From: Novipirellula herctigrandis
Lineage (GTDB): Bacteria > Planctomycetota > Planctomycetia > Pirellulales > Pirellulaceae
NCBI GenBank assembly: GCA_007859835.1
Contig: SJPJ01000001.1
Span: 3,683,437-3,747,436, forward strand
Direction: 5' to 3'
DNA length: 64,000 nucleotides
The position numbers were made by a program, and so were the translations under genes. Of this stretch, positions 21,404-53,138 are shown in pieces. The notes beneath the pieces were generated by a model. That model saw only the letters and a list, made by a program, of their open reading frames with translations, was not told the DNA's origin and did not search any database. The first letter of the stretch is position 1. The number at the start of each line of letters is the position of its first letter.

Positions 21404-23881
21404 ATGACGATTCGATCGCTTTCTCTCCTCCTTGCCTCGGTCCTCGCGATGGGCAGCAGCTTTGGGCAGGTATCGTCCAGCAGTTCCAGCCTGCAATCAT
21501 CCGGAGCGGTTGACGCCAACACTCAGTTTCAGGGGATGATTAGTCGCGGTTACAAGCCGCTATTTAATGGGGAAGACTTAGCAGGTTGGCGGAACCCCTA
21601 TTCGCATGGCGAAGCAAAGGTCGTTGATGGCGAGATACACTTGCTGGCGAACGACAAGTTTTTTTTGGTCACAGAAAACAAATACGCCGACTTTCGTTTA
21701 AGCGTTGAAATTCACTTGCCTGAGGGGAAGGCCAACTCGGGCGTAATGTTCCGCTGTCATGTCGATGACGATGCAAAAAAGAAAGTCTATGGCTATCAAG
21801 CGGAATGCGACGGTTCGGACCGACGTTGGTCGGGCGGGCTTTACGATGAAGGACGACGTGGGTGGATATGGCCAAGCACCAAGGGACGCTCTGAAGCTCA
21901 GTTCCTTGAACACGAAGAGGAATCAAAAGCAGCATTTGAGAATCCGACGATTGCAAACGCGCTGAATCGAAACGGCTGGAATCGATTTGTGGTCACGTGC
22001 GTTGAGGATTATATCACTATCGAAGTCAACGGAGTTCCAACCACAAGCTTCCGTGACGCGGTTGACACGAATGGCTATATCGGGATCCAACACCATGGAG
22101 AAGACGGTCAGACTTACCGATTTCGAAACTTGTTTATCAAAGAGCTGCCGGACATTCCTGCGGAGAGGTCCGTTTCATTGACGGAGCAGGCGCCAGTGTC
22201 AGTCAAGAAAGTCAATGACGAGGTAATCTTGGTTGACTTCGGCAAAGTGGCTTATGGGAATCTCAAGACGCGGGTTCCCGATACTGGACGCGGAGAAGCC
22301 ATTTTCCACTTCGGTGAAAAGTTGAAAGATGGTCGCATTGATCGCAATCCACCTGGAACGGTTCGTTATGGCGAGACCCGGATTCGCAAGGAAGTCGCGC
22401 TGAAAGGGAATTGGGTGATTCCAACTCCGGTTGATTCTCGAAACACAGAACAGGCAGGCAACAAGCGAGCCCATCCGCCAGCCGTATTGACGCCGAAAAC
22501 GTGGCGGCCTGTTATGCCATTTCGTTGGGTCGAAATCGAAGGCTGGGAAGGTGAGTTCAAACCTGAATACATCGTTCGCCGGGCTGCCTTTGCCACGGAC
22601 TGGAATGATCAGGCGAGCTCGTTTGAGTGTTCCGACGAAACGCTGAATAAGATCTGGGCTTTGTGCAAATACAGTATCAAAGCAACGACGTTCGCCGGGG
22701 TCTACGTTGATGGCGATCGTGAACGCATTCCGTACGAAGCCGATGCGTATCTGAACCAACTGAGTCACTACTACACCGACGACGACGTCAAGATGGCCGC
22801 GACTTCGTTCGATTGGCTGATCGAGAATGGTACGTGGCCAACCGAGTGGGCGCCGCACATGGTGTTCATGGCCCACGCCGAGTGGATGTATTCCGGCGAC
22901 ATCCAGTGGCTCAAGCAACGTTACGAATTGTTGAAAGCGAAAACGTTGATGCATCGCAGCGGCGAAGACGGGCTGGTTCGTAGTGCCGAGATGGATCGAA
23001 AAAGGCATGACATTGTCGATTGGCCGCAAAAGGAACGCGACGGTTATGTCTTCACCGAGATCAACACCGTCGTTAATGCGTTTCACATCGAGGCAATTAA
23101 GCAGATGGCCGAAATGGCTCGTGCGATCGGAAAGAACGAGGAGGCGGACGCTTTTGAATCCCGAGTCGAACTTGCCAAAGCATCCTTCCAAAGGACTCTG
23201 TTCGACGAAACCTCAGGAATTTACCGCGACGGTGTCGGCACCGATCACAGCAGCATTCATGCGAACTTCTTTCCTTTGGCTTTCGGGCTGGTGCCGGACG
23301 ATAAACTTGCTGGTGTGATTTCATGGCTTAAGGAACGTGACATGCAGTGCAGCGTCTACGCGGCCCAGTATTTCATGGAAGGACTCTTCGAAAATGGTCT
23401 TGACGATAAGGCGATTGAGTTGATGATTGCCGACGGTGATCGTAGTTGGAAGCACATGGTCGAGAGCGGAACGACGATCAGTTGGGAGGCTTGGGATCTG
23501 AAATACAAACCCAACCAAGATTGGAATCACGCATGGGGTGCCGCCCCAGCGAACCTGTTGCCACGTTTCGTGCTAGGCGCTCAGTCAGATGCTCCAGGAT
23601 GGACGACCGCAATGATCCGCCCGTGCCCCGGCGGTCTGGCGTATGCTCGCGGCACAATTCCGACGCCACGCGGACCGGTTTCGATCGATTGGAAGAACGA
23701 GGCCACGTTTGAAATGTCACTCACATTGCCTGATGGGATGGTGGCGAAAGTCGATCTGCCGGCGACGGGCGAGACCACAGGCGTTTTGGTCAATGGTGAA
23801 TCCGTTGCAACCACAAAGGCCGGAGATCGATGGATCCTGACGGATGAAGTCAGCGGCTCGGTGATGATCAAAGTTAAGTGA
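21404..23881 (+). CDS. DUF1080 - GH78 alpha-L-rhamnosidase fusion
   Basis: After a signal peptide (about residues 1-22) comes a DUF1080 domain at about 50-250, with FNGEDLAGWRN and SGVMFRCH. This is a concanavalin-like fold seen in 3-keto-disaccharide hydrolases and glycan-binding proteins. The remaining 550 residues are a GH78 rhamnosidase. The (alpha/alpha)6 barrel has DGDRERIPYEADAYLNQ starting at Asp436 in place of the usual DCPQRDER, and ISWEAW with Glu695 as the probable base. It should hydrolyse terminal alpha-L-rhamnose by inversion. I chose ATG 21404 because the signal peptide begins there, though no strong ribosome binding site is visible. It is the first gene of the long plus-strand polysaccharide run. 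GH78 is complete except that the typical N-terminal beta domains are reduced. Confidence 0.85.
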   Translation: MTIRSLSLLLASVLAMGSSFGQVSSSSSSLQSSGAVDANTQFQGMISRGYKPLFNGEDLAGWRNPYSHGEAKVVDGEIHLLANDKFFLVTENKYADFRLSVEIHLPEGKANSGVMFRCHVDDDAKKKVYGYQAECDGSDRRWSGGLYDEGRRGWIWPSTKGRSEAQFLEHEEESKAAFENPTIANALNRNGWNRFVVTCVEDYITIEVNGVPTTSFRDAVDTNGYIGIQHHGEDGQTYRFRNLFIKELPDIPAERSVSLTEQAPVSVKKVNDEVILVDFGKVAYGNLKTRVPDTGRGEAIFHFGEKLKDGRIDRNPPGTVRYGETRIRKEVALKGNWVIPTPVDSRNTEQAGNKRAHPPAVLTPKTWRPVMPFRWVEIEGWEGEFKPEYIVRRAAFATDWNDQASSFECSDETLNKIWALCKYSIKATTFAGVYVDGDRERIPYEADAYLNQLSHYYTDDDVKMAATSFDWLIENGTWPTEWAPHMVFMAHAEWMYSGDIQWLKQRYELLKAKTLMHRSGEDGLVRSAEMDRKRHDIVDWPQKERDGYVFTEINTVVNAFHIEAIKQMAEMARAIGKNEEADAFESRVELAKASFQRTLFDETSGIYRDGVGTDHSSIHANFFPLAFGLVPDDKLAGVISWLKERDMQCSVYAAQYFMEGLFENGLDDKAIELMIADGDRSWKHMVESGTTISWEAWDLKYKPNQDWNHAWGAAPANLLPRFVLGAQSDAPGWTTAMIRPCPGGLAYARGTIPTPRGPVSIDWKNEATFEMSLTLPDGMVAKVDLPATGETTGVLVNGESVATTKAGDRWILTDEVSGSVMIKVK

Positions 23882-23924
23882 ACGTGGCGTCCTCGCACTC
23901 GTCGAACAGGCTGCAAGGGCGTGA

Positions 23925-24524
23925 TTGCACGCCGGTAGTTACATGACAACCATACAATCCCATGGCGCCACCATGAATCGAATCAGAGGGATGCGACCGC
24001 TCGCGTTGTTCGTCGGCGGCGGCGATGTGCCAGCGAATATAGACGGCCGATCGTTTTTGCCGGTTCTGCATGGCGAAACCAAGACTCATCGGAAGCGAAT
24101 CTTCACGACGCACAGTGGCAACTTGAAGATGAATGTCTATCTGAGTCGTTCGATTCGCACGGATCGATACAAGCTGATCTACAACCCGCACCCCGAGTTC
24201 GCGTTCACGTCTTACATCGACCTATTGCTTCGAGAAACCTCGGGTGACTACTGCAAGCAGTGGACGCAGCGGGCCAAGACCGACAAGCATGCCGCAGAAG
24301 TCGTGGCAAGATACTACGATCGGCCTGAGTACGAGTTGTTCGACTTGCAGGAAGACCCGGACGAGCAAACCAATCTCGCCGGTAAACCAGAATGGAGACA
24401 AGTCCAGCGAGATCTGCTGACAGAACTGAACGGCTGGATGAAAGAACAGGGCGACGCGCTGACTGTTTTCCATGAGCCGCTCATGTTAAATGCTCCCGAA
24501 ACCTGGGTTCCTAGAAGACGATGA
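23925..24524 (+). pseudogene. Headless sulfatase remnant (C-terminal part only)
   Basis: From about 24024 the frame reads like the last third of an S1 sulfatase: VPANIDGRSFLPVLHGE, then IRTDRYKLIYNPHPE, then YELFDLQEDPDEQTNLAG. The N-terminal two thirds, including the C-x-P-x-R formylglycine motif and the metal-binding DDxG, are absent; the first 30 codons match nothing. Without the active site it cannot be a working sulfatase. It is probably the remnant of a deletion that brought the previous rhamnosidase close. An intact sulfatase starts 45 bases downstream. The frame has no internal stop, so recent decay or expression of a fragment are both possible. Confidence 0.85.
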
Positions 24525-24569
24525 GCGTTTTTTACAACTTGCAATTCAAGCATTATCGAGAAAATTGAA

Positions 24570-25910
24570 ATGAGGCAGTTTTGTTGCGTCTCCATCTGGC
24601 TTTCCGTGGTGTTGTTCGCTTTGGCTGGTCAGGCTGCTAAGGCTGCAAAACCAAATGTTGTGTTTATCTTGAGCGACGACCAGGGGTGGACGGACTATGG
24701 GTTTATGGGGCATCCGTATGTTCAAACCCCAAACTTGGACGCTTTGGCTCGGTCCGGTCTGCTCTATGAACGCGGGTATGTGACGGCGCCGCTTTGTCGA
24801 CCCTCATTGGCTAGTCTCGTAAGCGGACTCTACCCCCATCAGACCGGTATTCGCGGAAATGACCCACTTCTTCCGATCGGGAAAAGTCGCAGGAGCCAGA
24901 AAGACAAGCCTTTCTCGGCGAAGTTGCGCAATCGAATGACCGCGCCCATGATGGAGCACCCGTCGTTCATCAGGACACTCAAAGAAAATGGTTACGCAAC
25001 GCTACAAACGGGAAAATGGTGGGAGGGCAATCCGCTTGACCATGGCTTCACCGACGCGATGACTCATGGAGACCACTTTCGTGGCGGACGGCACGGCGAC
25101 GACGGGTTAAAGATTGGTCGGGAGACGATGAAGCCCATCTATGATTTCGTCGACAAGGCGAATGCGAACGATCAACCGTTTTTCGTTTGGTACGGCGTCT
25201 TCTTGCCACATGCACCACACAATGCACCTGATCGGCTGTTGGACAAGTACCAAGATCTCGCCCCCGATGAGCCTACGGCGCGTTACTGGGCGAACGTGGA
25301 GTGGCTGGACGAAGGTTGTGGCCAGATGATTGACTATTTGAAGAAAAAGCAGCTCTACGAAGACACGATATTCGTCTACACCTGCGACAACGGATGGGTG
25401 CAGGATCCTGGCAAACTCAACAATAGCATCCGCTCGAAACGCGAGCCGGTCGAGGCAGGGATCCGAACACCGATCTTCATTACTCACGGCAAAACGATTC
25501 AGCCGCAGCGTGATACGGAAATTCTCGCCAGCAACATCGATATTGCTACGACCATTTTGCGGGCCTGTGGAATCAAACCGCCATCAGCGATGACCGGACT
25601 TGATCTTCGTGATCCGACACAACTTAAAAAACGCAACCGGGTCTTTGTCGACGTTTATGAGCACGACAGCGATCTGGATCAGCTCGATGATCTTGGAAGT
25701 GGCTTGATGGCGCGTGTGGTCATCGACGGTTGGGATAAACTGATCGCTCGGCCCGAACGCGATGAGCTATACGATTTGAAGACTGACCCTGACGATCGCA
25801 ACGATTTGGCATCGCTGAAGGCAGAGAAAGTCAAGAAGCTTTCGGGCATCCTTGATGCTTGGGTCGGTAACAACACGTCGGTCATAAACTCAAGCCCACC
25901 CCGCCGTTAA
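24570..25910 (+). CDS. Secreted sulfatase (S1, CRPSL variant)
   Basis: A 446-residue sulfatase with signal peptide (about 1-25), PNVVFILSDDQGWTDYG at the metal site, and the maturation motif as LCRPSLASL with Cys76. The canonical motif has Arg at the fifth position (C-x-P-x-R); here it is Leu. YTCDNGW provides the later metal ligands, and ELYDLKTDPDDRNDLA closes the C-terminal domain. CRPSL variants occur in some planctomycete sulfatases, so it may still be matured, but the loss of Arg is notable. It sits between the headless sulfatase and a putative polysaccharide lyase. Confidence 0.9.
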   Translation: MRQFCCVSIWLSVVLFALAGQAAKAAKPNVVFILSDDQGWTDYGFMGHPYVQTPNLDALARSGLLYERGYVTAPLCRPSLASLVSGLYPHQTGIRGNDPLLPIGKSRRSQKDKPFSAKLRNRMTAPMMEHPSFIRTLKENGYATLQTGKWWEGNPLDHGFTDAMTHGDHFRGGRHGDDGLKIGRETMKPIYDFVDKANANDQPFFVWYGVFLPHAPHNAPDRLLDKYQDLAPDEPTARYWANVEWLDEGCGQMIDYLKKKQLYEDTIFVYTCDNGWVQDPGKLNNSIRSKREPVEAGIRTPIFITHGKTIQPQRDTEILASNIDIATTILRACGIKPPSAMTGLDLRDPTQLKKRNRVFVDVYEHDSDLDQLDDLGSGLMARVVIDGWDKLIARPERDELYDLKTDPDDRNDLASLKAEKVKKLSGILDAWVGNNTSVINSSPPRR

Positions 25911-25944
25911 GGATCAAGCGGGAAAACGCCGTTGGATTTGAAAC

Positions 25945-26001: not shown

Positions 26002-26061
26002 GATTTGTTCCATCGAGAAAACTTACACGCAACTGGTTACATCCGACGAGAGAAAGACAAC

Positions 26062-28038
26062 ATGGATCGCAGAGATTTCATAGGGGGGCTGACGTCGAGC
26101 TATGCATGCGCCACGCTCTTTGCGAGTGGCGCAGTCGCGAATGCGCAAACGTTTGCCGAAGAACCTGGCAACAGCGACTTTGACGCACTAACCAAAAGCT
26201 TGCTTTCGGAATGGTGTGACGGGATGATTCGGCGCCAGATCAATGATCCGGGGAATGCCGAGCTTCATGGTGCCTTGGCATGTCCGGCTTGTGATCACAT
26301 TCATGGCCGGTGTTCCGATGCGCTGTATCCGTTCTTACACATGGCGCATGTAACGGGCAAGAAGAAATATCTTGACGCTGCGATCAATGTTTACGATTGG
26401 GCAGAGAACAACGTTAGTCAGCCCGATGGCAGCTGGACCAATGACATCAACCCCAAAGCGTGGCGTGGAACGACAATCTTTGGCGCGATCGCACTTGCCG
26501 AAGCCCTGCACTATCACGGCGAAGTGCTGGACGAAGATCGCCGCGCGGCGTGGACAAGACGGCTCGACGATGCGGTCGGCGGCTATTTGTATCGGGATTT
26601 CAAGAAGATTGATTTCACGAATCTGAACTACGGAATGACCGGCGTCTACGGTTTTAAACTGTTCGGTCGAGTCCTAGGAAAACGGAAGTACACGGAACGA
26701 AGTGAGCAATTCTCGAAACGGCTCAAAGAGTTCTTCACAGAACCGAATAAGCTGCTCTGGGGCGAAGGCAAACCGAATGACAATCGCAGCGGCCGAGGTC
26801 TGTTGCCAGTCGACCTTGGGTACAACGTTGAGGAATCACTCAACGGCGTCGTGCTATACGCTTTAGAAGAAAACGACACGGAGTTGTTGGACCTGTTGGT
26901 TGAATCTCTCAACGCCCACTTGGAATTCATGTTGCCTGACGGTGCGTGGGACAACAGTTGGGGCACTCGGTCAGCCAAGTGGAGCTACTGGGGCAGTCGG
27001 ACGTCGGATGGCTGTCAGCCTGCGCTGAGTCTGATGGCAGGCTACAATCCAGCGTTTGGGACAGCCGCGATTAGGAATGCAGAACTACTGCAACGGTGTA
27101 CCGCAGATGGACTGCTGCATGGTGGCCCGCACTACGTTTCGCATGGTGTCAAACCTTGTATCCACCACACATTTGCACACGCGAAGGTGATGGCTCTGGT
27201 GCAGGACAAAATGCATTGGATGCCCAAGGTAGACGCAATTACGCCACTACCTCGCAGGACCGCTCAAGGAGTGAAGCACTTTCCTGAACTCGACGTTTGG
27301 CTTGCAGCGAAAGGGCCATGGCGAGGAACGGTGTCTGCTTACGATTCGATCTACAAAACCAAGTCAGTAGTCCATCTGCAGCAACCGACCGGTGGATCGT
27401 TGGCGGTGCTGTATCACATGAAGGTGGGCACTTTACTGGCGTCCAGCATGGCGCGATACATTCTAGTCGAACCGCTGAACCAACAGCCTCAGCCTAGTGA
27501 AGATTTCCCCTTTACCACACGGGTTGAAATTCGCAACGCCGATGGCTGGTTCACCAACATCTATGACTTGAAGGCCGATGTAAGTGTTGAAAACCATGAT
27601 GATCATATTACGTTCGATGTGAAGACGACCCTGCAAGATGAAGATCGGAAAGTCGTTGAGAATGCGGCAGCAAGTTATGACGTCACGTATCAGTTTGATA
27701 GCGAGAAAGTGACGATTTCCGCAGTGTCCTCTGACGCAACATCGTCCTCTGACGCAACATCGTCCTCTGGCGCAACATCAGGATCGGATCGAGTTGCGTT
27801 GGTCGTTCCTATCATTTCGCACTCCGGCGAAGAAGTCCGTCTGGTATCGGAAAAACGCATTGAGATCACAAAACCGGACGGGACTGTTATCGTCCAATCG
27901 AATGTCCCGTTGGCGATCAAAGCCAGTAAGAAGGGACGCATATTCAACATGGTGCCGGGTGCGGAAGCGGTGCCGATCATCGCGGAATTTCCCGCCAAGC
28001 AATTGGGCAAGGTCTGCTGCGAGATCTCCGTTGCTTAG
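26062..28038 (+). CDS. Putative exported (alpha/alpha)-toroid polysaccharide lyase or hydrolase
   Basis: The N-terminus MDRRDFIGGLTSS is a Tat signal with the twin Arg intact. Residues 50-380 are helical with repeated patterns of an (alpha/alpha)6 toroid, such as HGRCSDALYPFLHMAHVTG, NYGMTGVYGFKLFGR, and IHHTFAHAKVMALV with clustered His. The last 280 residues are beta-rich, as in toroid-plus-sandwich lyases such as the heparinase II/III group. I cannot name the family. ATG 26062 is chosen for the Tat motif and nearby GAGAGAAAG; total 658 residues. Three tandem 18-bp repeats in the beta part encode SSDATS units and probably form a loop. Position between sulfatase and rhamnosidase genes supports a role in sulfated glycan breakdown. 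Confidence 0.6.
   Translation: MDRRDFIGGLTSSYACATLFASGAVANAQTFAEEPGNSDFDALTKSLLSEWCDGMIRRQINDPGNAELHGALACPACDHIHGRCSDALYPFLHMAHVTGKKKYLDAAINVYDWAENNVSQPDGSWTNDINPKAWRGTTIFGAIALAEALHYHGEVLDEDRRAAWTRRLDDAVGGYLYRDFKKIDFTNLNYGMTGVYGFKLFGRVLGKRKYTERSEQFSKRLKEFFTEPNKLLWGEGKPNDNRSGRGLLPVDLGYNVEESLNGVVLYALEENDTELLDLLVESLNAHLEFMLPDGAWDNSWGTRSAKWSYWGSRTSDGCQPALSLMAGYNPAFGTAAIRNAELLQRCTADGLLHGGPHYVSHGVKPCIHHTFAHAKVMALVQDKMHWMPKVDAITPLPRRTAQGVKHFPELDVWLAAKGPWRGTVSAYDSIYKTKSVVHLQQPTGGSLAVLYHMKVGTLLASSMARYILVEPLNQQPQPSEDFPFTTRVEIRNADGWFTNIYDLKADVSVENHDDHITFDVKTTLQDEDRKVVENAAASYDVTYQFDSEKVTISAVSSDATSSSDATSSSGATSGSDRVALVVPIISHSGEEVRLVSEKRIEITKPDGTVIVQSNVPLAIKASKKGRIFNMVPGAEAVPIIAEFPAKQLGKVCCEISVA
27727..27780 (+). 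repeat. Three tandem 18-bp repeats in coding sequence
   Basis: Unit TCCTCTGACGCAACATCG is repeated three times: 27727-27744, 27745-27762 (exact) and 27763-27780 (two changes). It stays in frame and encodes a Ser/Thr/Ala/Asp-rich stretch within the gene at 26062-28038. Confidence 0.95.
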
Positions 28039-28140: not shown

Positions 28141-29043
28141 ATGCGATCAAACCTGCTTCTCGTCGTACTAGCGATGGTTTGTGCTTTACCCGTTTCGGCA
28201 GTAACCGCGCAGGATCGAAAACAAGTGCGATCATTCGACAAGGGCACCGACCTCTTGCTATTGCAGCACGACTGTAAAACAGACCCTGACGACATCATGG
28301 CGATCGCGACGGAAGCGGGCATGCTAACGCACCCGGACTTCGCAGACGTGAATTACCATTTGGTCCTAGGGAGTTATCATTTTGGCGAATTGGATACTAA
28401 GCCTTACATTCCTCGGTCTGACGAGGTGATGGCGTTTGCCTTCGGTGTCGAGGGTGAAAATTGGACCAATATACACAAGGACTTTGATGAGACCGAGTTC
28501 GTCTGGCCCCAGGCAACAATCAACCGAGTAGCTGAAAGGGTCAAGCGTGTTCTCGATCAAAGTGGGATTGTCTGGGTGGCTGAGGCTGGCACGTCGAACT
28601 ACACAGCGCAGTGGTTACTAGCACTGCGTGAATCGGGGGTGGATAGCGAGATCCTTCGACGGCATGTCGTCGTTGTCCAGCACAGCAAGGTCAATGAGGA
28701 CAGAACGGAGCCAGGAAACCTTCAATACACCAAGCAGAATGCGAGTTATTTCAAAATTGATGATGGAAATTCATCGAATCGGACACCCGCGTATAAGGAT
28801 AAGACCTTGTCTCTGATTAAAATCGTGACCGGCGCTGATGATCGCAATAATAAAAATCTCGCGATCTGGCGATTGGCAAATGAGATCATACAGGCTCACC
28901 CAATTCCCCAAAAGCGAATTCAGTTTCTCGATTTCTCAGATACAGTAGAGGTATGGTGGATTTTGCAGTTGGGCTCAGATGGGAATAGTGTCCAGAAGGT
29001 GATCGACCGCTATATTGTGAATCTGGTGGCGAAGAGTGACTGA
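28141..29043 (+). CDS. Secreted nucleoside-hydrolase-like protein
   Basis: A signal peptide (about 1-23) is followed by LLLLQHDCKTDPDDIMAI. This resembles the Asp-rich Ca2+-binding N-terminal motif of the inosine-uridine nucleoside hydrolase fold (DTDPGxDD) and of the related DUF1593 family. The later segment VWVAEAGTSNYTAQWLLAL fits the second strand-loop region of that fold. Export and the setting among glycan-degrading genes argue against nucleoside salvage. A sugar-releasing activity on the polysaccharide is more likely. The window's GH10 fusion at the right end carries a DUF1593 domain, so the fold occurs twice. The exact reaction is unknown; 300 residues is normal for the fold. Confidence 0.6.
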   Translation: MRSNLLLVVLAMVCALPVSAVTAQDRKQVRSFDKGTDLLLLQHDCKTDPDDIMAIATEAGMLTHPDFADVNYHLVLGSYHFGELDTKPYIPRSDEVMAFAFGVEGENWTNIHKDFDETEFVWPQATINRVAERVKRVLDQSGIVWVAEAGTSNYTAQWLLALRESGVDSEILRRHVVVVQHSKVNEDRTEPGNLQYTKQNASYFKIDDGNSSNRTPAYKDKTLSLIKIVTGADDRNNKNLAIWRLANEIIQAHPIPQKRIQFLDFSDTVEVWWILQLGSDGNSVQKVIDRYIVNLVAKSD

Positions 29044-29113
29044 CAGCGTTGTGATGCGCAATGCTGCACTGGAGAGCCCGCAATTTCAATCTAATTCAAA
29101 GACCAACCCCCAA

Positions 29114-34976: not shown

Positions 34977-35042
34977 GAAATATGCAGTCACGCTCAACCG
35001 TTCCTCTCGCAAAAACGAATTCCTCGAAAAACCAAACAGCTC

Positions 35043-37988: not shown

Positions 37989-38087
37989 CTCGCGCGTGCT
38001 TAGCTGCACGCATTGCATGCTTGCTTTCCTAGTGGAAATCTCATACCAAACGTGAAACCGAAATATCGCGAAACTCAAAAGACAGAA

Positions 38088-39482: not shown

Positions 39483-39625
39483 CAAGCAGCTTCTTTGATC
39501 GAACCATTGTGCTAATAGAAAACGCAAGCCCAAATTTTTCAGATACCACACGGTTCCCCTCAGGAAAGATCTGTTCTGATGCTCTCCTCCCTGAAATTGA
39601 GTTTTTCGAAAGGCAGCACGCTAGA

Positions 39626-42633: not shown

Positions 42634-42709
42634 GGCGATGATCATTTTATATATGCTAAATGCCATCCTCGCTATTCCATTTTGACCAGCGAGATTTAAA
42701 TTTAGGACT
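42634..42709. promoter_or_regulatory. Divergent regulator/isomerase promoter region with inverted repeat
   Basis: The 76 bases between the AraC gene and the isomerase are AT-rich and hold the 6-base arms CTCGCT (42668-42673) and AGCGAG (42688-42693), exact complements 14 bases apart. This could be a regulator site. AraC-type sites are more often direct repeats, so the call is tentative. Confidence 0.3.
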
Positions 42710-44140: not shown

Positions 44141-44161
44141 ACCGAACGCGAAAGATGCTCA

Positions 44162-46912
44162 ATGACAAACCTGCAACCTTTCAAAAGCTGTCTGAAACTG
44201 TTCCTTGTTTTGACCCTCGCCATGATTTCCACATCCGCCCTTGCCGGGTCCGTGAAAGTCGAGAAGCTGCGCTGCGAGTATCTTCAGGATCCACTTGGCG
44301 TTGATGTGGCCGAGCCGCGCTTGAGTTGGCAGATCACGGATGCGTCCCTGGTTCGCGGTCAGGTGCAGACCGGCTATCGCGTTCTTGTGGCGAGCCGACC
44401 CGAAATGCTGGAGAACGAACAAGGTGATCTCTGGGACAGCGGAAAGGTCTTGTCTGCGCAATCTGTTCTGGTGCATTATCAGGGTGTGGGATTAGCGTCG
44501 AACCAGCATTGTTGCTGGCAGGTCCGTGTTTTTGATAAGGATGGGAAGGCGAGCGATTGGAGCGAGCCGGCGAGTTTTTCAATGGGGCTGCTGGATCCAA
44601 GCGACTGGAAAGGGGGGTGGATCAAGCATCCTGGGATGCCCCCAGCGACCGAGGCCGCGGTTCGTTCCGGCGAGACACTACCGGTCGAACAGCATCTTTG
44701 GTTCCGCAACAATCTGAAGCTTGATGCCGCCGCCCAGACGGCTTTCCTGCATGTTGCTTCGTGTGGATACCACGAACTCTACGTGAACGGCAACAAGGTT
44801 GATGACCGTGTGCTCGCCCCGGCGCAGAGCCGACTCGACAAGCGCGTGCTGTACGTCACCTATGACGTTGCGGATCTGCTGCGACAGGGCGACAACGTGA
44901 TTGCGTTGTGGACAGGCCCTGGCTGGTCACGATACAGCTTTTTCAAAATGCATCATGCGTTGCGCGTCCAACTTGATGGCTCGGACGCCGACAACAACCG
45001 GTTCTCGTTGTCCACAGGCTCTAATTGGCGCTGTGCACCGGCGAACAGCAGAAACGATGGCGGCACTCGCTACGGTGACAATGGTGGCGAGCTTCTTGAC
45101 GCTGGTAGATTCGTCGCTGATTGGAACGCGGTTGGCTTTGACGATGTCGCTTGGTCGTGGGCGGAGGAAACGGAGATTGGTGCCCAGCTGTCTTCGCAAA
45201 TGATGGAACCGACACGCATCATCGAGACCTTTTCGGCGAAGAGCGTTTCGGGTGACGGCGCCTACCAAATTGACATGGGCAAGAACTTTACCGGTTGGCT
45301 GAAGATCACCATGCGTGACCAGAAGCCCGGTGACCGGATCAAAATCCAAGTCGCGGACGATGAACAGACGGTGCAGGATTTCGGACAGCGTAATGAGTAC
45401 ATCTGCAAGGGCGGAGGCACCGAATCGTTTCAAAATCGCTTCAACTACATCGCGGGCCGGTACGTCACAATCGATGGCCTACGGCGCAAACCGGAACCCG
45501 AACAGATCACCGGATTGGTGCTCGCGACCGATCTGCAGCAAGTGGGGCGGTTTTCTTGCTCCAGTGAGCTGTTCAACGAGATCTACGAAGCCGACCTTTG
45601 GACCTTCCGCGCCAATACTGTCGAAGGCTTCACAATGGACTGCCCACACCGTGAACGTCTCGGTTACGGCGAGGTCGCCTTTGCCAACGCTTGGGCGATC
45701 GGATTGCCGAACTACCACTGCGGTGCGTATTACACCAAACACGTGCGAGACTGGTCCGATGTCCAAGAGTCAAACGGCTGGATCCACCACACCGCGCCTC
45801 AAATCAACAAGCACTACGGCGGGCCGATGTGGAGCAGCGCCGGACTCAATATCGCTTGGGCCTTTTATCAGCACCACGGCGATCCACGTATCCTCGAACT
45901 TATCTATCCGTCTGCAACACGCTGGTTGGGATTCCTAAACGCCCATGTCGAAGGCGGACGTTTGAGGAACTACGCGACGCACGGCGGTCGATTCCTTGGT
46001 GACTGGGCCGCTCCCGGTCAACGCAAAGAGTTTGGTGACACGCCGGAGGCAGAGTATTTCAACAACTGTGTCTATGCCATGAACCTCGCGAACGTCGCTG
46101 ACATGGCGAGGATTCTGGGAAAGGACGACGATGCGGCACGTTTCAAAGAGCGGCTGAGGTTGCTACGCAGAACAATTCACGAACGTTTCTTCGATCCAAC
46201 CACGTCAAATTATTCGGCGGGAACACAGGTCCAGCAGGCTTTCGCCTTGATGACGGGGGTCACGCCAGAACACCTCCGACCAGCCGTGATGGCGAACATC
46301 GAGAAAGACCTCACCGAAGTGCATCGCTACCTTGACATGGGCAGTTCTGGATTGCCGGTATTGTTCAAGTTCATGATCGAAGAATCGGGCCAAAGCGAGT
46401 TGTTCTTTGATGCGCTGTCGATGACGACACAGCCAAGTTACGGATACTTCCTCGATCGCGGCGAGACTACTTGGCCCGAATACTGGAACGTTGATGTGCC
46501 CAGTCGTATCCACACCTGCTATACCGGCGTAGCGTCGTGGATGACCAAGAGCCTTGCTGGTATTCGCCCTGATCCTAACGCGCCGGGTTTCCAATCCTTC
46601 ATTATTCATCCCGTCTTGGCGGGCGACCTGACTTTTGCCGAAGCCTCTACCGAATCTCCTTACGGCGAGATCACCAGTCGCTGGGAACGAAACGGACCCC
46701 GGCTCACGCTGGATATCATGATTCCTCCAAACTCCCGGGCGACTGTCTACGTTCCAACGCGCGATCCGCAGCGCGTGTCCGAAAGCGGGAGGTCTCTTCG
46801 CGATGCTGACGGTGTGACGCTGTTGCGCATCGAAGACGGGCGCGCGGTGTTGAGTGTCGACGCGGGCGCTTACCAGTTCACCTCCGTTCTCGAATCGAGT
46901 TTACGGCCATGA
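44162..46912 (+). CDS. Alpha-L-rhamnosidase, GH78 (DCPHRER subtype)
   Basis: A 916-residue GH78 protein with a signal peptide (about 1-28), N-terminal beta domains (VEKLRCEYLQDPLGVDVAEP; LSWQITD), and the catalytic barrel. The acidic motif is DCPHRERLGYGE starting at Asp493, a recognised alternative to DCPQRDERLGW, and GETTWPEYW gives Glu773 as the probable base. The C-terminal beta domain follows. Only about 20-25% of motifs look shared with the GH78 at 35043, so it likely has another linkage or oligosaccharide preference. It is probably co-transcribed with the isomerase upstream and the sulfatase downstream. Confidence 0.92.
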   Translation: MTNLQPFKSCLKLFLVLTLAMISTSALAGSVKVEKLRCEYLQDPLGVDVAEPRLSWQITDASLVRGQVQTGYRVLVASRPEMLENEQGDLWDSGKVLSAQSVLVHYQGVGLASNQHCCWQVRVFDKDGKASDWSEPASFSMGLLDPSDWKGGWIKHPGMPPATEAAVRSGETLPVEQHLWFRNNLKLDAAAQTAFLHVASCGYHELYVNGNKVDDRVLAPAQSRLDKRVLYVTYDVADLLRQGDNVIALWTGPGWSRYSFFKMHHALRVQLDGSDADNNRFSLSTGSNWRCAPANSRNDGGTRYGDNGGELLDAGRFVADWNAVGFDDVAWSWAEETEIGAQLSSQMMEPTRIIETFSAKSVSGDGAYQIDMGKNFTGWLKITMRDQKPGDRIKIQVADDEQTVQDFGQRNEYICKGGGTESFQNRFNYIAGRYVTIDGLRRKPEPEQITGLVLATDLQQVGRFSCSSELFNEIYEADLWTFRANTVEGFTMDCPHRERLGYGEVAFANAWAIGLPNYHCGAYYTKHVRDWSDVQESNGWIHHTAPQINKHYGGPMWSSAGLNIAWAFYQHHGDPRILELIYPSATRWLGFLNAHVEGGRLRNYATHGGRFLGDWAAPGQRKEFGDTPEAEYFNNCVYAMNLANVADMARILGKDDDAARFKERLRLLRRTIHERFFDPTTSNYSAGTQVQQAFALMTGVTPEHLRPAVMANIEKDLTEVHRYLDMGSSGLPVLFKFMIEESGQSELFFDALSMTTQPSYGYFLDRGETTWPEYWNVDVPSRIHTCYTGVASWMTKSLAGIRPDPNAPGFQSFIIHPVLAGDLTFAEASTESPYGEITSRWERNGPRLTLDIMIPPNSRATVYVPTRDPQRVSESGRSLRDADGVTLLRIEDGRAVLSVDAGAYQFTSVLESSLRP

Positions 46913-46952
46913 ATCCAACTTGTGGACGTCCGTCGTTTAATATCGAAGGCAA

Positions 46953-48485
46953 ATGAACCCGGAATTGAAAATGATGATAAACAAGCTACTGCTATGGCTC
47001 CTATGTGTCACAGCGTTATTCGCACGCGCACCTGCTACCGGTTTTGCTGCTGACAAAAGCAGGCCGAATGTCATTTTCTTGATGGACGACCAACACCGTT
47101 GGGACGCGCTCGGGGTGGTGGATGGTGCTGTAAAGACGCCGAACCTGGATGCCCTGGCAAAATCGGGCATTCTCTACGATCAGGCCGTCTGCCAGGCGCC
47201 GATGTGTATTGCCAGTCGTAACTCGATGATGTTCGGTCTCTATCCGAATCAGACTGGTGTACTGCGTAATGGTCACGGAATGCCAGACGCACAACTGCCC
47301 GCCCGCCCGCTGCCCGAACTGTTCAGAGACGCCGGGTACCAAACCGCCGGCTTTGGTAAAACCCATTGGGGTTTGGTTTGTGGGACTCGTGGTTTTGAAA
47401 CCCGATATATCGCAGAGTGCCTTGAAAATGACGCCGTGATGATGATCGACGATGCACCGGCAGCCAAACAGCGATACGATGCCGAGAGCAAAACGATGGG
47501 CCCTGGCGAGGAGGACAACCTCGGGTATCTCGGGTTCACAAGTCCATTGCCGGAGGGAGAACACCGAGACGGCTGGGTAACCAATAAATGCCTCGAGTTT
47601 ATCGACGGCGAGATTGATCCCGAACGACCATTGTTTCTGTATCTCTCTTTCCTTAAGCCACACGCCGGTCACAACGTTCCTGCCGGGTACGAAGATCGCT
47701 ATGACGTGAATGACACTCAGTACGCGTCGCAGCCACCATGGACGGAGGACCGCTCGCCACATGCCGCCGGTGTCAATCGCCGTGACAAGTACATCGACTA
47801 CTGGAGCAAAGCAACGGACGAGCAATGGCGGTTGATGACCATGCGATATCGGGCGAACTGCACGTGGATTGACGATATGTTCGGAAGAGCCCTGAAGGCT
47901 CTACAGCGAAAGGGGGTGCTGGACAACGCGATCATTGTCTTTTGTAGCGATCACGGCGAAATGCTGGGCGAACGCTTCTATCGATTCAACAAGTATTGTC
48001 TTTACGAATCAAGCGTCCGCGTCCCTCTTGTACTCGCTGGTTCCGCGATTCCCGAGCAACTGCGTGGGACACGCGATCATCGGGCCGCCGAGTTGGTGGA
48101 TCTCTATCCCACCTTGCTGAGCGCCACCGGGATAGAAGTTCCGCAACAATCGGTCGGGTTAAATCTGTTGGACCGTCAGAAAAGGCCGGCATCGTTCTGT
48201 GCCCTGCATGAACGAGAGGCCGAAGCCGCTTTTATGTGGCGAACTGCTGACCACAAACTGATTCTCAGGATGAAACGAAGAGTCGACGACGACGCCAGTA
48301 CGTACACGGCAAACGACATTATCGGTGGCGAATTTTTTGATTTGGTCAATGATCCGCAAGAGTGGCGTGACCTGTACTCGGCTCCTTCGGTCCACTTGGA
48401 GACACGCGAGAGGATGACCCAGGAACTGTTGGCCTTTCTCAAGTCTCACCACAAACGGACGAATTTCAGGCAACGAAAAAGATGA
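46953..48485 (+). CDS. Secreted sulfatase (S1, CIASR variant)
   Basis: A 510-residue sulfatase. Hydrophobic export signal LLLWLLCVTALFARAPATGFA, then PNVIFLMDDQHRWDALG. Its DDQHRWDALG form is typical of choline-sulfatase/iduronate-type members. The maturation motif is CIASR (Cys85), with Ala in place of Pro. FCSDHGEMLGE is the later metal site, and FFDLVNDPQEWRDL the end signature. The start could be the Met at 46953 (GAAGG is very close) or one at 46971. It lies 40 bases after the GH78 gene, inside the AraC-linked operon. Confidence 0.9.
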   Translation: MNPELKMMINKLLLWLLCVTALFARAPATGFAADKSRPNVIFLMDDQHRWDALGVVDGAVKTPNLDALAKSGILYDQAVCQAPMCIASRNSMMFGLYPNQTGVLRNGHGMPDAQLPARPLPELFRDAGYQTAGFGKTHWGLVCGTRGFETRYIAECLENDAVMMIDDAPAAKQRYDAESKTMGPGEEDNLGYLGFTSPLPEGEHRDGWVTNKCLEFIDGEIDPERPLFLYLSFLKPHAGHNVPAGYEDRYDVNDTQYASQPPWTEDRSPHAAGVNRRDKYIDYWSKATDEQWRLMTMRYRANCTWIDDMFGRALKALQRKGVLDNAIIVFCSDHGEMLGERFYRFNKYCLYESSVRVPLVLAGSAIPEQLRGTRDHRAAELVDLYPTLLSATGIEVPQQSVGLNLLDRQKRPASFCALHEREAEAAFMWRTADHKLILRMKRRVDDDASTYTANDIIGGEFFDLVNDPQEWRDLYSAPSVHLETRERMTQELLAFLKSHHKRTNFRQRKR

Positions 48486-48522
48486 AGTCCTGATACGATT
48501 CAACACATTGCGAAACCGATCG

Positions 48523-51500
48523 ATGAACCAACCCACATCCATTCTTTTTATTGCACTGACACTTATCGCCGGAGGCCTTCGCGCCGACGAATTCGTTGAT
48601 GCCTTCCGGAATCCGCCTGATGCGTCGCGTCCGGGTGTTTACTGGTACTTCATGGACGGCAACCAGGATCGCGACGAGATGATCGCCGACTTGCGTGCCA
48701 TGAAAGAGGTCGGCATCGGCAGCGTACTGTTTCTGGAAGTCGATCTGGGGATGCCGCGTGGTCCAATACCGTTCATGACCGAACCGTGGCAGGACAACAT
48801 CGCACATGCCTTTGCCGAAGCAGGACGAATGGAGATGGAAGTGATTCTCGGCACCGGGCCTGGCTGGAGCGGCAGTGGAGGGTCATGGGTGAAAGCCGAG
48901 GACTCGATGAAGCACCTGGTTGGCAACAGCCTCAAAGTCACCGGGCCAGCAATGCTCGACGAAATTTTGGAGATCCCGCCACCTCATCCGGCTAACCACT
49001 TCGCCGGAATGAATGCAGTCCATGAATCCGAACGTAATGCATGGCACGAGGATGTGGCCGTGATCGCCTTTCCGACTCCTGCCGAGGAAACAGCCACCAT
49101 TGATCAGATCAACATCAAGACCTTGAAGGATGTGCAGCCCTACTCAATCCGCCGGACTCTCCAGCGGTTTGTCGCGTCTCGCGCCGATTACACCGAGCCG
49201 GATAAGTCCAGCGTGATCGATTTGAACCAAGTCATTGATCTAACTTCGTTGATGCAGCCCGACGGTCGCATCCGCTGGAGTGTCCCCAAAGGCGAGTGGA
49301 CGGTGATGCGATTCGTTTCCCGAAGCACCGGCCAAACCACACGCCCTGCTCCACAGACCGGCCACGGATTCGAGACAAACAAGTTTGATCGCGAAAGTTA
49401 CCAACGGCATTGGGAAAATTTTCATGCCAAACTGATTAAGAAAATCGACGCCAAGGGTGGACCGCTCAAGCCGGGCACGGGGCTGACAACCATTCACCTC
49501 GACAGTTGGGAGATGAGTTCTCAAAACTGGACTGCGGGGTTTCGCGAGGAGTTTCGTAAACGCCGGGGATACGATCCGCAGCCCTTCTATCCCGCTTACA
49601 CCGGACTAGTCGTCGATAGCTTGGAGCGGACCGAGAGATTCTTGTGGGACATGCGCAAGACCTCACAAGAATTGGTGCTAGAGCAGTACGCCGGCGTGAT
49701 TAAACAGATCGCCCATGAGCATGGCTTGCTGTACTCGAACGAGCCTTACGACATGAATCCGGCCGGCGACATCGATCTGGGCTCCGTTGCCGACATACCC
49801 ATGTGTGAGTTTTGGAACGCTCCCCATGATACGCAGTACGGCTGCATCGAAGCAGTCAGTATCTCGCACACGATGGGACCTCAGGTTGTAAAGGCAGAGG
49901 CTTTTACGTCGAGTGAAGATGCCTTTGCGAAGCATCCCGCTAATATGAAGAACCAAACCGATTGGGCTCTCGCGATCGGCATCAACGGCATTGTTTTCCA
50001 CACCTATCAGCACCAAACGCTCGGCGACAAAGAGCAGCCAGGGATGACCATGGGACCCTATGGCGTTCAGTGGCATCGTAACCAAACGTTCTGGCGATTC
50101 CTGCCCGCCTATCATGAGTACTTGGCGCGCTGTTCGCATCTTTTGCGGCAGGGCGAAGCGGTGGCCGACATCCTCTACCTCACGCCCGAAGGCGCCCCGC
50201 ACATTTTCGAGGCCCCCGAGGATGCCACCGAGGGAGTCACAAGGATGCGAGACAAGAAGGGGTACGCCTTCGATGCGGTCACGCCGCGGATCCTTGCGAT
50301 GCGGGCACGGGTCGAAGGCGACAGAATCGCCTTTCCGGACGGCAGTAAATATCGGGTCCTGGTATTGCCCGACGTGCCGGCGATGACTCCCGAATCACTT
50401 GCAACCATCAAGAAGTTGGTGGAAGCCGGGGCCACTGTGATCGGTAACCCGCCGGTCAAGTCCCCAAGCCTAGTAGACTATCCGGCGTGTGACGACGAGG
50501 TGTCCAGACTGGCTGAGTCGATTTGGGGTGGCGCTGAAGTTCCTGAGGAAGTGACTCGTATCGAACGAGGAAAGGGCGAGGTGTTCTGGGGTGGAGCCCT
50601 TGCGCCTAGTTCGGGCCTCTTTCCGAGCTACCTCACCACCGAATCAATCTTGTTCGGGCTGGGACTTCCTGAAGATTTCTCCTCGCCCTCGGGCAAGCTG
50701 CGTTACATCCATCGTCAAACGGAAGACCGCGACTTCTATTTCGTTGCCAACCGCACCGAAGAGCGGGTCGACACCGAGGGGATCTTTCGGATCGAAGGAC
50801 GTCAGCCGCAACTGTGGGATCCGGTTACCGGAACCACGCGGCAACTTGAAAATTATGAAGCACGCGATGGGATGACAACTATTCCGCTCTCCTTCGAACC
50901 TTACCAGAGCTTCTTTGTCGTTTTTCCGAAAAGCAACTCTGGAAATGATCGAGCAAATGTTGCCATCGAAAATTTCCCAACATTGAAAAATTCCTTGCAG
51001 CTTGATGGAGTCTGGGACGTTGCCTTCGATCCCGTGCGTGGCGGTCCAGCGGATGTCACTTTTGATCGATTGCAGGATTGGACAAAACACCCGGAATCCG
51101 GCGTTCGCTATTACTCGGGCGTGGCCACCTATCGCAAACGTTTTGATCTCTCAACGCCAGACGTCTCGGACGACACGAGGCTCTATTTAGACCTTGGCAC
51201 TGTGCATGACCTTTGTCGCGTCCGCCTCAATGGTCATGATCTCGGGGTCGTTTGGACTGCACCATGGCGAGTCGACATTGCTTCCGCGGTGAAACCTTCC
51301 GACAACCAGTTGGAGATTGACGTGGTCAACGGTTGGGCCAACCGGTTGATCGGCGATCTGCAGGAGGGTGATCGGGGAGTTCGCGAAGTGACATGGAAAT
51401 CAGGTTTACTGGATGGCAAGACTTTTTCAGCGGGGCGTTTTTCCTTCGTAACCCACCAACATTACAAGCCGGCGTCACCGTTGCTGCCGGCCGGCCTGCT

Positions 51501-51546
51501 CGGGCCAGTGACTGTCTTGGTAGAATCTTCAGCGGAGACACCTTAG
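48523..51546 (+). CDS. GH106 alpha-L-rhamnosidase-like protein
   Basis: A 1,007-residue protein of the GH106 type. After a signal peptide (SILFIALTLIAGGLRA) come PGVYWYFMDGNQDRDEMIAD and MKEVGIGSVLFLEV of the barrel, IHLDSWEMSS and IPMCEFWNAP with the conserved Glu residues, a GH42-like domain (VEAGATVIGNPPVK) and the C-terminal jelly roll (LNGHDLGVVWTAPW). It differs from the GH106 at 29114 in lacking the SGNH domain and in a shorter N-terminal region. The Met at 48523 is preferred to the TTG at 48508. It probably acts with the adjacent GH78 and sulfatases on rhamnose-bearing oligosaccharides. Confidence 0.85.
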   Translation: MNQPTSILFIALTLIAGGLRADEFVDAFRNPPDASRPGVYWYFMDGNQDRDEMIADLRAMKEVGIGSVLFLEVDLGMPRGPIPFMTEPWQDNIAHAFAEAGRMEMEVILGTGPGWSGSGGSWVKAEDSMKHLVGNSLKVTGPAMLDEILEIPPPHPANHFAGMNAVHESERNAWHEDVAVIAFPTPAEETATIDQINIKTLKDVQPYSIRRTLQRFVASRADYTEPDKSSVIDLNQVIDLTSLMQPDGRIRWSVPKGEWTVMRFVSRSTGQTTRPAPQTGHGFETNKFDRESYQRHWENFHAKLIKKIDAKGGPLKPGTGLTTIHLDSWEMSSQNWTAGFREEFRKRRGYDPQPFYPAYTGLVVDSLERTERFLWDMRKTSQELVLEQYAGVIKQIAHEHGLLYSNEPYDMNPAGDIDLGSVADIPMCEFWNAPHDTQYGCIEAVSISHTMGPQVVKAEAFTSSEDAFAKHPANMKNQTDWALAIGINGIVFHTYQHQTLGDKEQPGMTMGPYGVQWHRNQTFWRFLPAYHEYLARCSHLLRQGEAVADILYLTPEGAPHIFEAPEDATEGVTRMRDKKGYAFDAVTPRILAMRARVEGDRIAFPDGSKYRVLVLPDVPAMTPESLATIKKLVEAGATVIGNPPVKSPSLVDYPACDDEVSRLAESIWGGAEVPEEVTRIERGKGEVFWGGALAPSSGLFPSYLTTESILFGLGLPEDFSSPSGKLRYIHRQTEDRDFYFVANRTEERVDTEGIFRIEGRQPQLWDPVTGTTRQLENYEARDGMTTIPLSFEPYQSFFVVFPKSNSGNDRANVAIENFPTLKNSLQLDGVWDVAFDPVRGGPADVTFDRLQDWTKHPESGVRYYSGVATYRKRFDLSTPDVSDDTRLYLDLGTVHDLCRVRLNGHDLGVVWTAPWRVDIASAVKPSDNQLEIDVVNGWANRLIGDLQEGDRGVREVTWKSGLLDGKTFSAGRFSFVTHQHYKPASPLLPAGLLGPVTVLVESSAETP

Positions 51547-51716
51547 CAAAGAACACTTTGTCTCAGGCCTTTTTACGGCAGTGCACGACAACCGTTTTAC
51601 AATCTTAGCAACATTCCTTTATTGGCGACTTGCGTTTTCGATATCGTCGTTTCCAAACTCTTTCCGCCGATAGCCCAATGATTATGCAATGCAGCACCAT
51701 TATTATGCGAGATACC

Positions 51717-53138
51717 ATGATGCATCTTATGATTCGATCGATTTCCGCCGTCGTCGCCTGTGTCTTTGTGGTTTTAACAAGTGCGGAAGCATTCTCTGAG
51801 TATAAACAGCCGAACATCATCTTCATCCTCGCCGATGATTTGGGATTCAATCAAATTGGCGCTTACGGTGACACACCGATCAAAACGCCGAACCTTGATT
51901 CTCTTGCAAAGAATGGCATTCGGTTTACACAAGCATACGCCGGCAACACGGTCTGTTCACCATCGCGTGTTTCTCTGTTTACTGGCCGCGACGGTCGATT
52001 GATGGACAACAACTCCAACACCGTCCAGCTTGAAGCTATCGATGTTACCATCGCTCATGTGCTGAAGCATGCGGGATATGACACGGCCTTATTTGGCAAG
52101 TACTCCATCGGTTCGCAAATGGGAGTTACTGACCCATTGGCAATGGGTTTCGATACTTGGTTCGGTATGTATTCGATCCTGGAAGGTCATCGACAGTATC
52201 CGCATGTCCTTTGGCGGGACGGAAAGAAGGTGCGTATTGAATCGAACGAGGGCGGTAAGAAAGGGGCTTACGCTCAAGAACTGTTTGCAGGCGAAGCGAT
52301 CGATTACATCCGGCGCGACCGAGACAATCCGTTCTTTATCATGCTCGCCTTTTCTTCGCCTCATGCCGAATTGGGCGCACCAGAGGAATTTGTGAGACCC
52401 TACGAAAAGGAGTTCACCGAAATACCCTACACAGGGATGGCCACCGGAACGCCTGCGGACAAATACGCTTGGTACTATCCCGAAGCAGTTGAGCGACCGC
52501 ACGCCACGCTGGCTGGCATGGTGACGGCGTTTGATGCTTACGTGGGCAAAATCGTCTCCACGCTTAAAGAGAGAGGCATCGACGACAATACCCTCATTGT
52601 TTTCACGTCCGACAACGGTCCGCACGATGAAGGCGGCGGCGATCCAAGATTCTTCAAAGCATCTGAACCATACAAGGGCATGAAACGGGATCTTTACGAC
52701 GGCGGGATTCATGTTCCGATGATCGTCCATTGGCCTGCTGCGATCAGGATCGGCCGAGTTGATTCTACACCGTGGGCCTTTGCAGACGTTTTGCCAACGT
52801 TCGCTGACATCGCTGGCGTTCCGTTAAATTCCGTTCCACGTGTACGGACCAACGGAGTTTCCATTCGCAGTCGCTTGAACGACAGTCCGCTCGTTTTACC
52901 CGAGCGTACGCTGTACTGGGAATTTGGCAAGCAAGCGGGTGACCCCAATTCAGGAGTCATCGGGGAGGTCTTTCAAGCTGCCCGTCGCGGACCTTGGAAA
53001 GCCGTCCGCTACGGGATCGATGCGCGCGTGGAGCTGTACCAGATCGAGAAGGATCCAAGTGAAAGTGACGAACTATCGGAGAAACATCCGGAGATACATC
53101 AAGAGTTCGTATCCCTCTTCGAGCAATACAAGGGTTAG
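51717..53138 (+). CDS. Secreted sulfatase (S1, CSPSR)
   Basis: A 473-residue sulfatase with canonical formylglycine motif CSPSR (Cys80), PNIIFILADDLGFNQIG at the N-terminal metal site, FTSDNGPHDEGG in the middle, and LYQIEKDPSESDEL at the end. It resembles the arylsulfatase A group. I chose ATG 51717 because it directly begins a signal peptide (HLMIRSISAVVACVFVVL); earlier in-frame Met codons have no good ribosome site. It is the last gene of the AraC-linked plus-strand run. Confidence 0.9.
   Translation: MMHLMIRSISAVVACVFVVLTSAEAFSEYKQPNIIFILADDLGFNQIGAYGDTPIKTPNLDSLAKNGIRFTQAYAGNTVCSPSRVSLFTGRDGRLMDNNSNTVQLEAIDVTIAHVLKHAGYDTALFGKYSIGSQMGVTDPLAMGFDTWFGMYSILEGHRQYPHVLWRDGKKVRIESNEGGKKGAYAQELFAGEAIDYIRRDRDNPFFIMLAFSSPHAELGAPEEFVRPYEKEFTEIPYTGMATGTPADKYAWYYPEAVERPHATLAGMVTAFDAYVGKIVSTLKERGIDDNTLIVFTSDNGPHDEGGGDPRFFKASEPYKGMKRDLYDGGIHVPMIVHWPAAIRIGRVDSTPWAFADVLPTFADIAGVPLNSVPRVRTNGVSIRSRLNDSPLVLPERTLYWEFGKQAGDPNSGVIGEVFQAARRGPWKAVRYGIDARVELYQIEKDPSESDELSEKHPEIHQEFVSLFEQYKG

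Follow-up and report, generated by a model that had tools for sequence, protein, structure and literature searches.

A rhamnosidase- and sulfatase-rich locus of Novipirellula herctigrandis predicted to degrade an ulvan-type glycan

The window analysed here is a 64,000-nucleotide stretch (C1:3683437-3747436) of the 9.5-Mb genome of the planctomycete Novipirellula herctigrandis, and from about 16.8 to 53.1 kb it carries a locus that, judged by its sequence, quite probably serves to degrade an ulvan-type glycan of rhamnose 3-sulfate (Rha3S) and uronate. The window holds 60 open reading frames (ORFs) of at least 150 residues, 32 of which were taken as genes; 30 of these were scanned with Pfam and two with NCBIfam alone. 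The ORFs and their Pfam matches give three GH78 and two GH106 proteins, five full-length sulfatases plus one remnant, a BNR_4 protein, a GH10-like protein, an isomerase and an AraC regulator, in agreement with a preliminary description of the stretch. That description spoke of GH10-type proteins in the plural, and one of them does lie in the span that it gave (39509); the second, at 61252, falls outside it and has a GH10-type NCBIfam match below the cut-off. Genes are named below by their first coordinate in the window; G438, G436, G013, G429 and G262 are other planctomycete genomes, and Algibacter is an uncultured Algibacter sp. (G098). The genes of the locus, followed by a sulfatase farther upstream, are as follows.

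16821-18689, minus strand: LamG-domain protein (PF13385), with a 56% ortholog in G436 that keeps place and orientation
18653-19180, minus strand: extracytoplasmic function (ECF) sigma factor of the Rhodopirellula/Verrucomicrobium family (TIGR02989, 127.9 bits against a cut-off of 124.55)
19472-20737, plus strand: DUF1559 protein with N-methylation motif (PF07596, PF07963); 66% ortholog in G436
21296-23881, plus strand: GH78 alpha-L-rhamnosidase with an N-terminal PF06439 fusion (Pfam); 74% in G436, 54% over two thirds of its length in G438
23925-24524, plus strand: sulfatase C-terminal remnant (PF16347 alone)
24570-25910, plus strand: sulfatase with a CxPSL motif (PF00884); 68% in G013/G429, 43% in G438, 42% in Algibacter
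26005-28038, plus strand: predicted P29_PDnc-type ulvan-oligosaccharide dehydratase of 677 residues (eight-residue signature, Algibacter homolog, planctomycete orthologs)
28141-29043, plus strand: 300-residue protein with no family match in Pfam or NCBIfam
29036-33307, plus strand: GH106 alpha-L-rhamnosidase with a C-terminal SGNH esterase domain (Pfam)
33552-34976, plus strand: BNR_4 protein, predicted PL42-like rhamnosyl-glucuronate lyase (PDB match, catalytic residues, 69% ortholog in G438)
35043-37988, plus strand: GH78 alpha-L-rhamnosidase (Pfam); 69% in G013/G429, 53% in G438
38013-39482, plus strand: S1_25-like sulfatase, predicted to act on rhamnose 3-sulfate (best PDB match 6hr5; 69% in G438)
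39509-41506, plus strand: GH10-like protein with the acid/base Glu changed to His (PF00331); 61-70% in four planctomycetes
41734-42759, minus strand: AraC-family regulator, divergent to the isomerase (Pfam)
42710-44140, plus strand: AraA/FucI-like superfamily sugar isomerase (PF11762)
44162-46912, plus strand: GH78 alpha-L-rhamnosidase of a kind common to Bacteroidetes and Verrucomicrobia (Pfam); 64% in Algibacter
46953-48485, plus strand: sulfatase with a CIASR motif (Pfam)
48508-51546, plus strand: GH106 alpha-L-rhamnosidase (Pfam); 33-36% homologs in Algibacter
51630-53138, plus strand: sulfatase with a CSPSR motif (Pfam); 72-74% orthologs in the G438, G013 and G429 loci
4631-6280 (internal ATG at 4886), plus strand: sulfatase with a CTPTR motif in a separate upstream cluster (Pfam); relatives match it at 24-40% only

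The most diagnostic gene of the locus is 26005. Its protein contains, at exactly the published spacing, all eight residues that Baumgen et al. 2021 mutated in the ulvan-oligosaccharide dehydratase P29_PDnc, the signature D-x5-EE-x13-D-x20-D-x9-R-x2-K-x2-Y corresponding to D248, E254, E255, D269, D290, R300, K303 and Y306 of that enzyme (excerpts of PMC8511951, which list a variant R300E yet name R230E among the inactive variants). The signature is exact in seven of seven aligned proteins, from the window, five other planctomycetes and Algibacter, and a regular-expression search of 1.39 Mb (overlaps counted) in six frames found the pattern in the 26005 protein and these six homologs only. The base position is residue 252 of the 642-residue Algibacter ORF as against 248 in P29_PDnc. 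The planctomycete orthologs share 67-76% identity with 26005, and the gene of the Algibacter homolog, at 51%, immediately adjoins that of a PL28 ulvan lyase (PF22826, E 1e-118). No relative was found in Pfam, NCBIfam or the PDB sequences, either with the single sequence or with a profile of the seven. On the residue pattern and the PL28-neighbouring homolog, 26005 is predicted to be a P29_PDnc-type dehydratase. Foldseek was also run with a single-sequence model of this protein; among the first matches, interspersed with unrelated folds, were PL17/PL15-type alginate lyases (best E 6e-5, TM about 0.2). They would agree with a lyase of helical toroid and β-sheet, but a model of this quality (pLDDT 40.5) carries no weight as evidence.

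The dehydratase is present in 6 of the 397 class-level genomes searched, including the window's own. Stretches of 49-120 kb surrounding its gene were examined in the five other genomes, among which G013 and G429 belong to one genus and are nearly alike. The dehydratase, GH106 29036 and the GH10-like protein (61-70%) occur together in four of the five, the GH106 part of 29036 matching at 58-70% in G438, G436, G013 and G429 and at 37% in Algibacter. Three of these four relatives have sulfatase 51630 at 72-74%, two have GH78 35043 at 69% and another has it at 53%. G436 has also kept the upstream genes for the ECF factor, the LamG protein and the DUF1559 protein, and a 72-75% ortholog of the ECF factor adjoins the locus there; the LamG protein 16821 is possibly a sensor or anti-sigma partner of this factor. 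The order of these three genes (16821-20737; L082:212-6384) is thereby conserved beside a glycan locus in two genera. A planctomycete core is real and its parts vary, the BNR_4 protein and the S1_25-like sulfatase being less constant than the dehydratase, the GH106 and the GH10-like protein. It is this gene content shared with other genomes that makes the locus non-random. Sulfatase density was considered and dropped as proof: the genome has at least 150 sulfatases (best 150 of 325 candidates scored), which predicts a minimum of about 0.5 in 31.7 kb, where four were seen, and such clusters are common in it, another comprising at least 11 between C1:7.900 and 7.955 Mb.

At least seven genes of the window have homologs in one cluster of the uncultured Algibacter sp. 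(NZ_CANLZX010000007.1; G098:C7, 4-124 kb), namely 24570 (42%), 26005 (51%), 29036 (37%), 38013 (37%), 42710 (59%), 44162 (64%) and 48508 (36%). This 120-kb stretch also contains GH88/105, GH39, GH43, GH3, GH2, SusD, 12 sulfatase-like ORFs, GH78 and GH106 and, because of its PL28, GH88/105, SusD and other content, is by content an ulvan polysaccharide utilization locus (PUL). Unlike the window it has two PL28 matches, GH88/105, GH39, GH43, GH3 and SusD, whereas it has no GH10-like protein. With the ulvan PUL of Formosa agariphila, which includes P29_PDnc, P30_PL28, P33_GH105 and P36_S1_25/GH78 (excerpts of PMC8511951), the window shares the dehydratase residues, an S1_25-like sulfatase, GH78 and several S1 sulfatases. 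In contrast to that PUL, neither PL28 nor SusCD was found, the locus lacks GH105 and GH3, and sulfatase and GH78 are separate proteins; additional to it are GH106, a PL42-like lyase and the GH10-like protein whose acid/base residue is altered.

The BNR_4 protein 33552 is the candidate lyase. In phmmer searches of the PDB its best match is the PL42 enzyme FoRham1 (7esl; 160.8 bits), a fungal L-rhamnose-alpha-1,4-D-glucuronate lyase with gum arabic as substrate, ahead of GH145-type entries (80-88 bits) and ulvan lyase/Uly1 entries (18-33 bits). Ten of 11 checked active-site or related positions of FoRham1 (positions as given in excerpts of PMC8377490) carry the identical letter, the exception being Tyr26, here His; the equivalents of His85, His105, Arg166 and Tyr202 are retained, which provides the base/acid His, the second His and the neutralising Arg of PL42. 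Identity as a GH145 hydrolase was rejected, the catalytic posterior His48 of those enzymes being Tyr here, at the FoRham1 Tyr34 position. Because PL42 is the best match, most of the active-site letters are kept and Tyr stands at this position, the evidence favours a lyase acting on Rha-alpha1,4-GlcA (GlcA, glucuronate). The protein had been described as ulvan-lyase-like; its nearest family is PL42 and not PL24, PL25 or PL40, and what stands of the likeness is that PL42 and PL24 share catalytic residues (PMC8377490, in part). The BNR_4 proteins of G013 and G429 have Leu at the Arg166 position in the same alignment, and for this reason these paralogs may not be lyases. Other BNR_4 relatives, in G026, G065, G082 and G002 and the genome's own second copy, have neighbourhoods without the locus, except that a 65-66% match to sulfatase 51630 adjoins the G082 gene.

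Sulfatase 38013 has as its best PDB match 6hr5, 'Alpha-L-rhamnosidase/sulfatase (GH78)', at 259 bits, the next match scoring 172 bits. We take 6hr5 to be the S1_25 module of Formosa P36. P36_S1_25 desulfates the non-reducing-end Rha3S of ulvan trisaccharides (excerpts of PMC8511951), and 38013 is predicted, by best PDB match and not by SulfAtlas, to be an S1_25-type rhamnose-3-sulfate sulfatase. No specificity emerged for sulfatases 24570, 46953, 51630 and 4631. Two of the sulfatases have non-standard formylglycine motifs, CRPSL in 24570 and CGISR in 38013; the CxPSL that replaces CxPxR in 24570 is kept in four of four aligned homologs and is probably not decay, since it is conserved from Algibacter to planctomycetes. 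The ORF 23925, by comparison with full-length orthologs in G436, G013 and G429, is the remnant of a sixth sulfatase. The SGNH domain of GH106 29036 has no match in the planctomycete stretches examined; a single 115-residue match occurs in the Algibacter stretch.

In the GH10-like protein 39509 the acid/base Glu is His in five of five loci (G262 excluded), whereas the nucleophile Glu is kept in all five; the two Glu positions are those that we assume for GH10. Homologs compared include window 39509-41506, L083:3157-5043 and L039:1279-6111, and in G013 and G429, the two relatives of one genus, the protein is fused to a GH78 of the 35043 type. That it takes over the task of GH105 or GH39 is a guess. 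We put forward only tentatively, as a rather doubtful proposal, a planctomycete ulvan pathway that dispenses with PL28 and GH105, in which the dehydratase and the PL42-like lyase would yield unsaturated uronate and the conserved GH10-like protein with its Glu to His change would be a novel type of enzyme that splits the (unsaturated) uronyl- or xylosyl-Rha3S bond.

The isomerase 42710 has a 59% homolog in the Algibacter PUL and a 74% homolog beside a GH78 in a verrucomicrobium, and it keeps the four E/E/H/H positions of AraA, which are presumably catalytic. Isomerase and GH78 lie near each other in three phyla (window 42710-46912; L055:9989-17615; L056:4473-8647). Near L087:15728-15932 in G429 a fragment of the window isomerase (65% over 10%) directly precedes a GH78 and is perhaps the remnant of such a pair. 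All 12 related loci of GH78 44162 are from Bacteroidetes or Verrucomicrobia (one Algibacter, five Verrucomicrobia, six Tannerellaceae), in a scan that used query peptides and may leave out near relatives. The AraA/FucI-like enzyme may be the rhamnose isomerase of Algibacter, because that genome has this isomerase and no RhaA match. It is not the sole rhamnose isomerase of the window's genome, a role that was ruled out by RhaA at C1:4810190. In this genome, aldehyde dehydrogenase, acetate kinase and PTAC accompany the shell genes of a bacterial microcompartment (BMC; main locus at C1:3.15 Mb), and planctomycete BMCs act in fucose and rhamnose breakdown (PMC8857213, PMC4042473 and PMC12078418, in part). 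Near the loci of the relatives we found a KDPG aldolase in the G436 and G429 stretches and a PfkB kinase in G436 and G013 (counting scanned ORFs only; an ORF of G429 has the same start). G013 also carries an aldehyde dehydrogenase, a class II aldolase and a member of the enolase superfamily. In G438, at a distance of 62-67 kb from the dehydratase, there are RhaA, an FMN dehydrogenase and a class II aldolase. These catabolic genes fit the release of rhamnose and uronate.

From the observed gene content, the conserved residues and the gene content shared between genomes we infer the substrate and the activities. The substrate would be ulvan or a close relative with alternating alpha-L-Rha3S-(1->4)-uronate/xylose, sensed by the ECF/LamG pair and the AraC regulator. 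The PL42-like BNR_4 lyase would cut Rha(3S)-alpha1,4-GlcA through β-elimination; the S1_25-type sulfatase would remove the 3-sulfate from the non-reducing-end rhamnose, with the remaining sulfatases acting as well, and the GH78 and GH106 enzymes would then release the rhamnose. The remaining GlcA- or iduronate-Rha3S would be converted by the P29_PDnc-type dehydratase to unsaturated uronyl-Rha3S. Rhamnose would pass to RhaA and probably to the microcompartment, whose genes lie in another part of the genome, and the uronate to a route of the 2-keto-3-deoxygluconate (KDG)/6-phosphate (KDPG) type. The dehydratase signature, the sulfatase nearest to 6hr5, the Algibacter homologs and the content shared among planctomycetes support the earlier view of a rhamnose-centred, sulfated, ulvan-like system.

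Several results weigh against this assignment. PL28 is absent from all six planctomycete genomes with the dehydratase, the window's own included (PL40 was not searched for), while the same search gave two matches in the Algibacter genome and none in 14 standard control genomes. There is no GH88/105 in the locus, and the sole GH88-family gene of the genome lies about 1.6 Mb away; among the six planctomycete genomes GH88/105 is above cut-off in two, one gene each and outside the examined loci, two more having sub-cut-off matches only; none was found in G013 and G429. An ortholog of the BNR_4 protein at 69% is present in one of the four relatives (31-33% in two), as is the S1_25-like sulfatase at 69% (38% in another). 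In G262 the dehydratase stands without the other locus genes (45 kb upstream with matches of at most 30%, the contig ending 1.5 kb downstream), which means that dehydratase and locus can part. Tyr26 of FoRham1, replaced by His in 33552, is a rhamnose contact, and the lyase closest to 33552 has gum arabic as its known substrate. Finally, P29_PDnc acts on a disaccharide and was compared by its published residues only, so that a related non-ulvan rhamnose-uronate glycan fits too. The substrate might be another Rha-GlcA glycan, such as an arabinogalactan protein or a microalgal or cyanobacterial exopolysaccharide, from which the PL42-like enzyme would uncap rhamnose while the sulfatases serve sulfated variants. 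In its favour are the ranking of 33552 next to the gum-arabic PL42 and then GH145, the lack of PL28 in the genome and of GH105 in the locus, and the SGNH esterase domain on the GH106, which suggests acetylation; the P29_PDnc signature, the 6hr5 match and the gene set held in common with the Algibacter PL28 cluster point instead to Rha3S-uronate, and we regard this alternative as improbable.

Somewhat less improbable, though still unlikely, is that two loci adjoin here: one an ulvan-type planctomycete module spanning 16.8-41.5 kb together with the 51.6-kb sulfatase, the other an acquired cassette of isomerase, GH78, sulfatase and GH106 (41.7-51.5 kb) directed at a different rhamnoside. The four planctomycete relatives match 44162 at 26-38% only and 42710 merely as the G429 fragment, whereas Algibacter and a verrucomicrobium possess homologs of both genes at 59-74%; the taxonomic range of the loci related to 44162, read with the limit given above, speaks for the same division, as does a GC content of 56-57% for 42710, 44162 and 48508 against 50-54% for 21296-41506. 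Yet in Algibacter the cassette homologs stand in one cluster with PL28 and the homolog of the dehydratase. As for rhamnan sulfate, a chain of rhamnose that contains little uronate, the five rhamnosidases and five sulfatases would suit it, but a uronate-free rhamnan calls for no uronyl dehydratase and no Rha-GlcA lyase, and we give this substrate hardly any credence.

Read as an ulvan-type degradation system, the locus is a variant of a known one. Planctomycete homologs of the dehydratase, more distant and without the GH105/GH88/GH3 context, as in the window, had already been remarked on (Baumgen 2021, PMC8511951, Fig. 6), the excerpts of that paper containing no further analysis of a planctomycete locus; apart from this remark, no such locus was among the matches listed in literature searches, by titles and abstract starts, on PL42, planctomycete ulvan, rhamnosidase, sulfatase, SusC, BMC and dehydratase. 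New leads come from the GH10-like enzyme with its altered residue, from the PL42-like lyase and from the pairing of isomerase and GH78 across phyla. The enzyme set does look distinct from that of the ulvan PULs of Bacteroidetes: PL28 is lacking, the locus has no GH105, and one catalytic residue of the GH10-like protein is changed. The absence of SusC and SusD, also put forward earlier, was reproduced, no SusC, SusD or TonB receptor domain being present in the 30 Pfam-scanned and two NCBIfam-scanned ORFs, but it is not shown to be special here. An OprB-type porin is encoded at 14442-15866. Ulvan is a major polysaccharide of green seaweeds, and the ulvan cascade described in PMC8511951 (excerpts) is that of Bacteroidetes. 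If our assignment is right, it names concrete new enzymes, namely a GH10-like protein with Glu changed to His, a PL42-like lyase for a sulfated substrate and an AraA/FucI-like isomerase paired with GH78, and it opens the question of how such glycans enter bacteria that have no SusCD.

Some smaller features were also recorded. The 28141 protein has no match in the stretches taken from the five relatives and Algibacter, and its single-sequence structure model (pLDDT 36) is unusable. Ig_Rha78A_N has four matches in the genome, two of them within about 9 kb in the window. Near the G438 locus (L106:3526-5807 and 14039-16320) two copies of a pair of ORFs of 500 and 260 residues, with the same length and start and in opposite orientation, look like an insertion element. 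About 31 kb beyond the downstream end of the window, and apart from the main BMC locus, lies a gene whose product has two BMC shell domains (L094:10997-11551; G000:C1:3778463-3778972). A 280-residue ORF at 60352-61194, with no Pfam or NCBIfam match, resembles by eye the N-terminal portion of some larger, secreted glycosidase and is possibly truncated. A second ECF/FecR-LamG pair occurs at 8170-10367. It is uncertain whether sulfatase 4631 is part of the locus; at 504-7731 there is a second glycan cluster, of a sortilin-like BNR protein, a 469-residue protein, a sulfatase and a GH29-like protein, and relatives of this cluster (23-40%) lie directly upstream of the window (L054:10264-19389).

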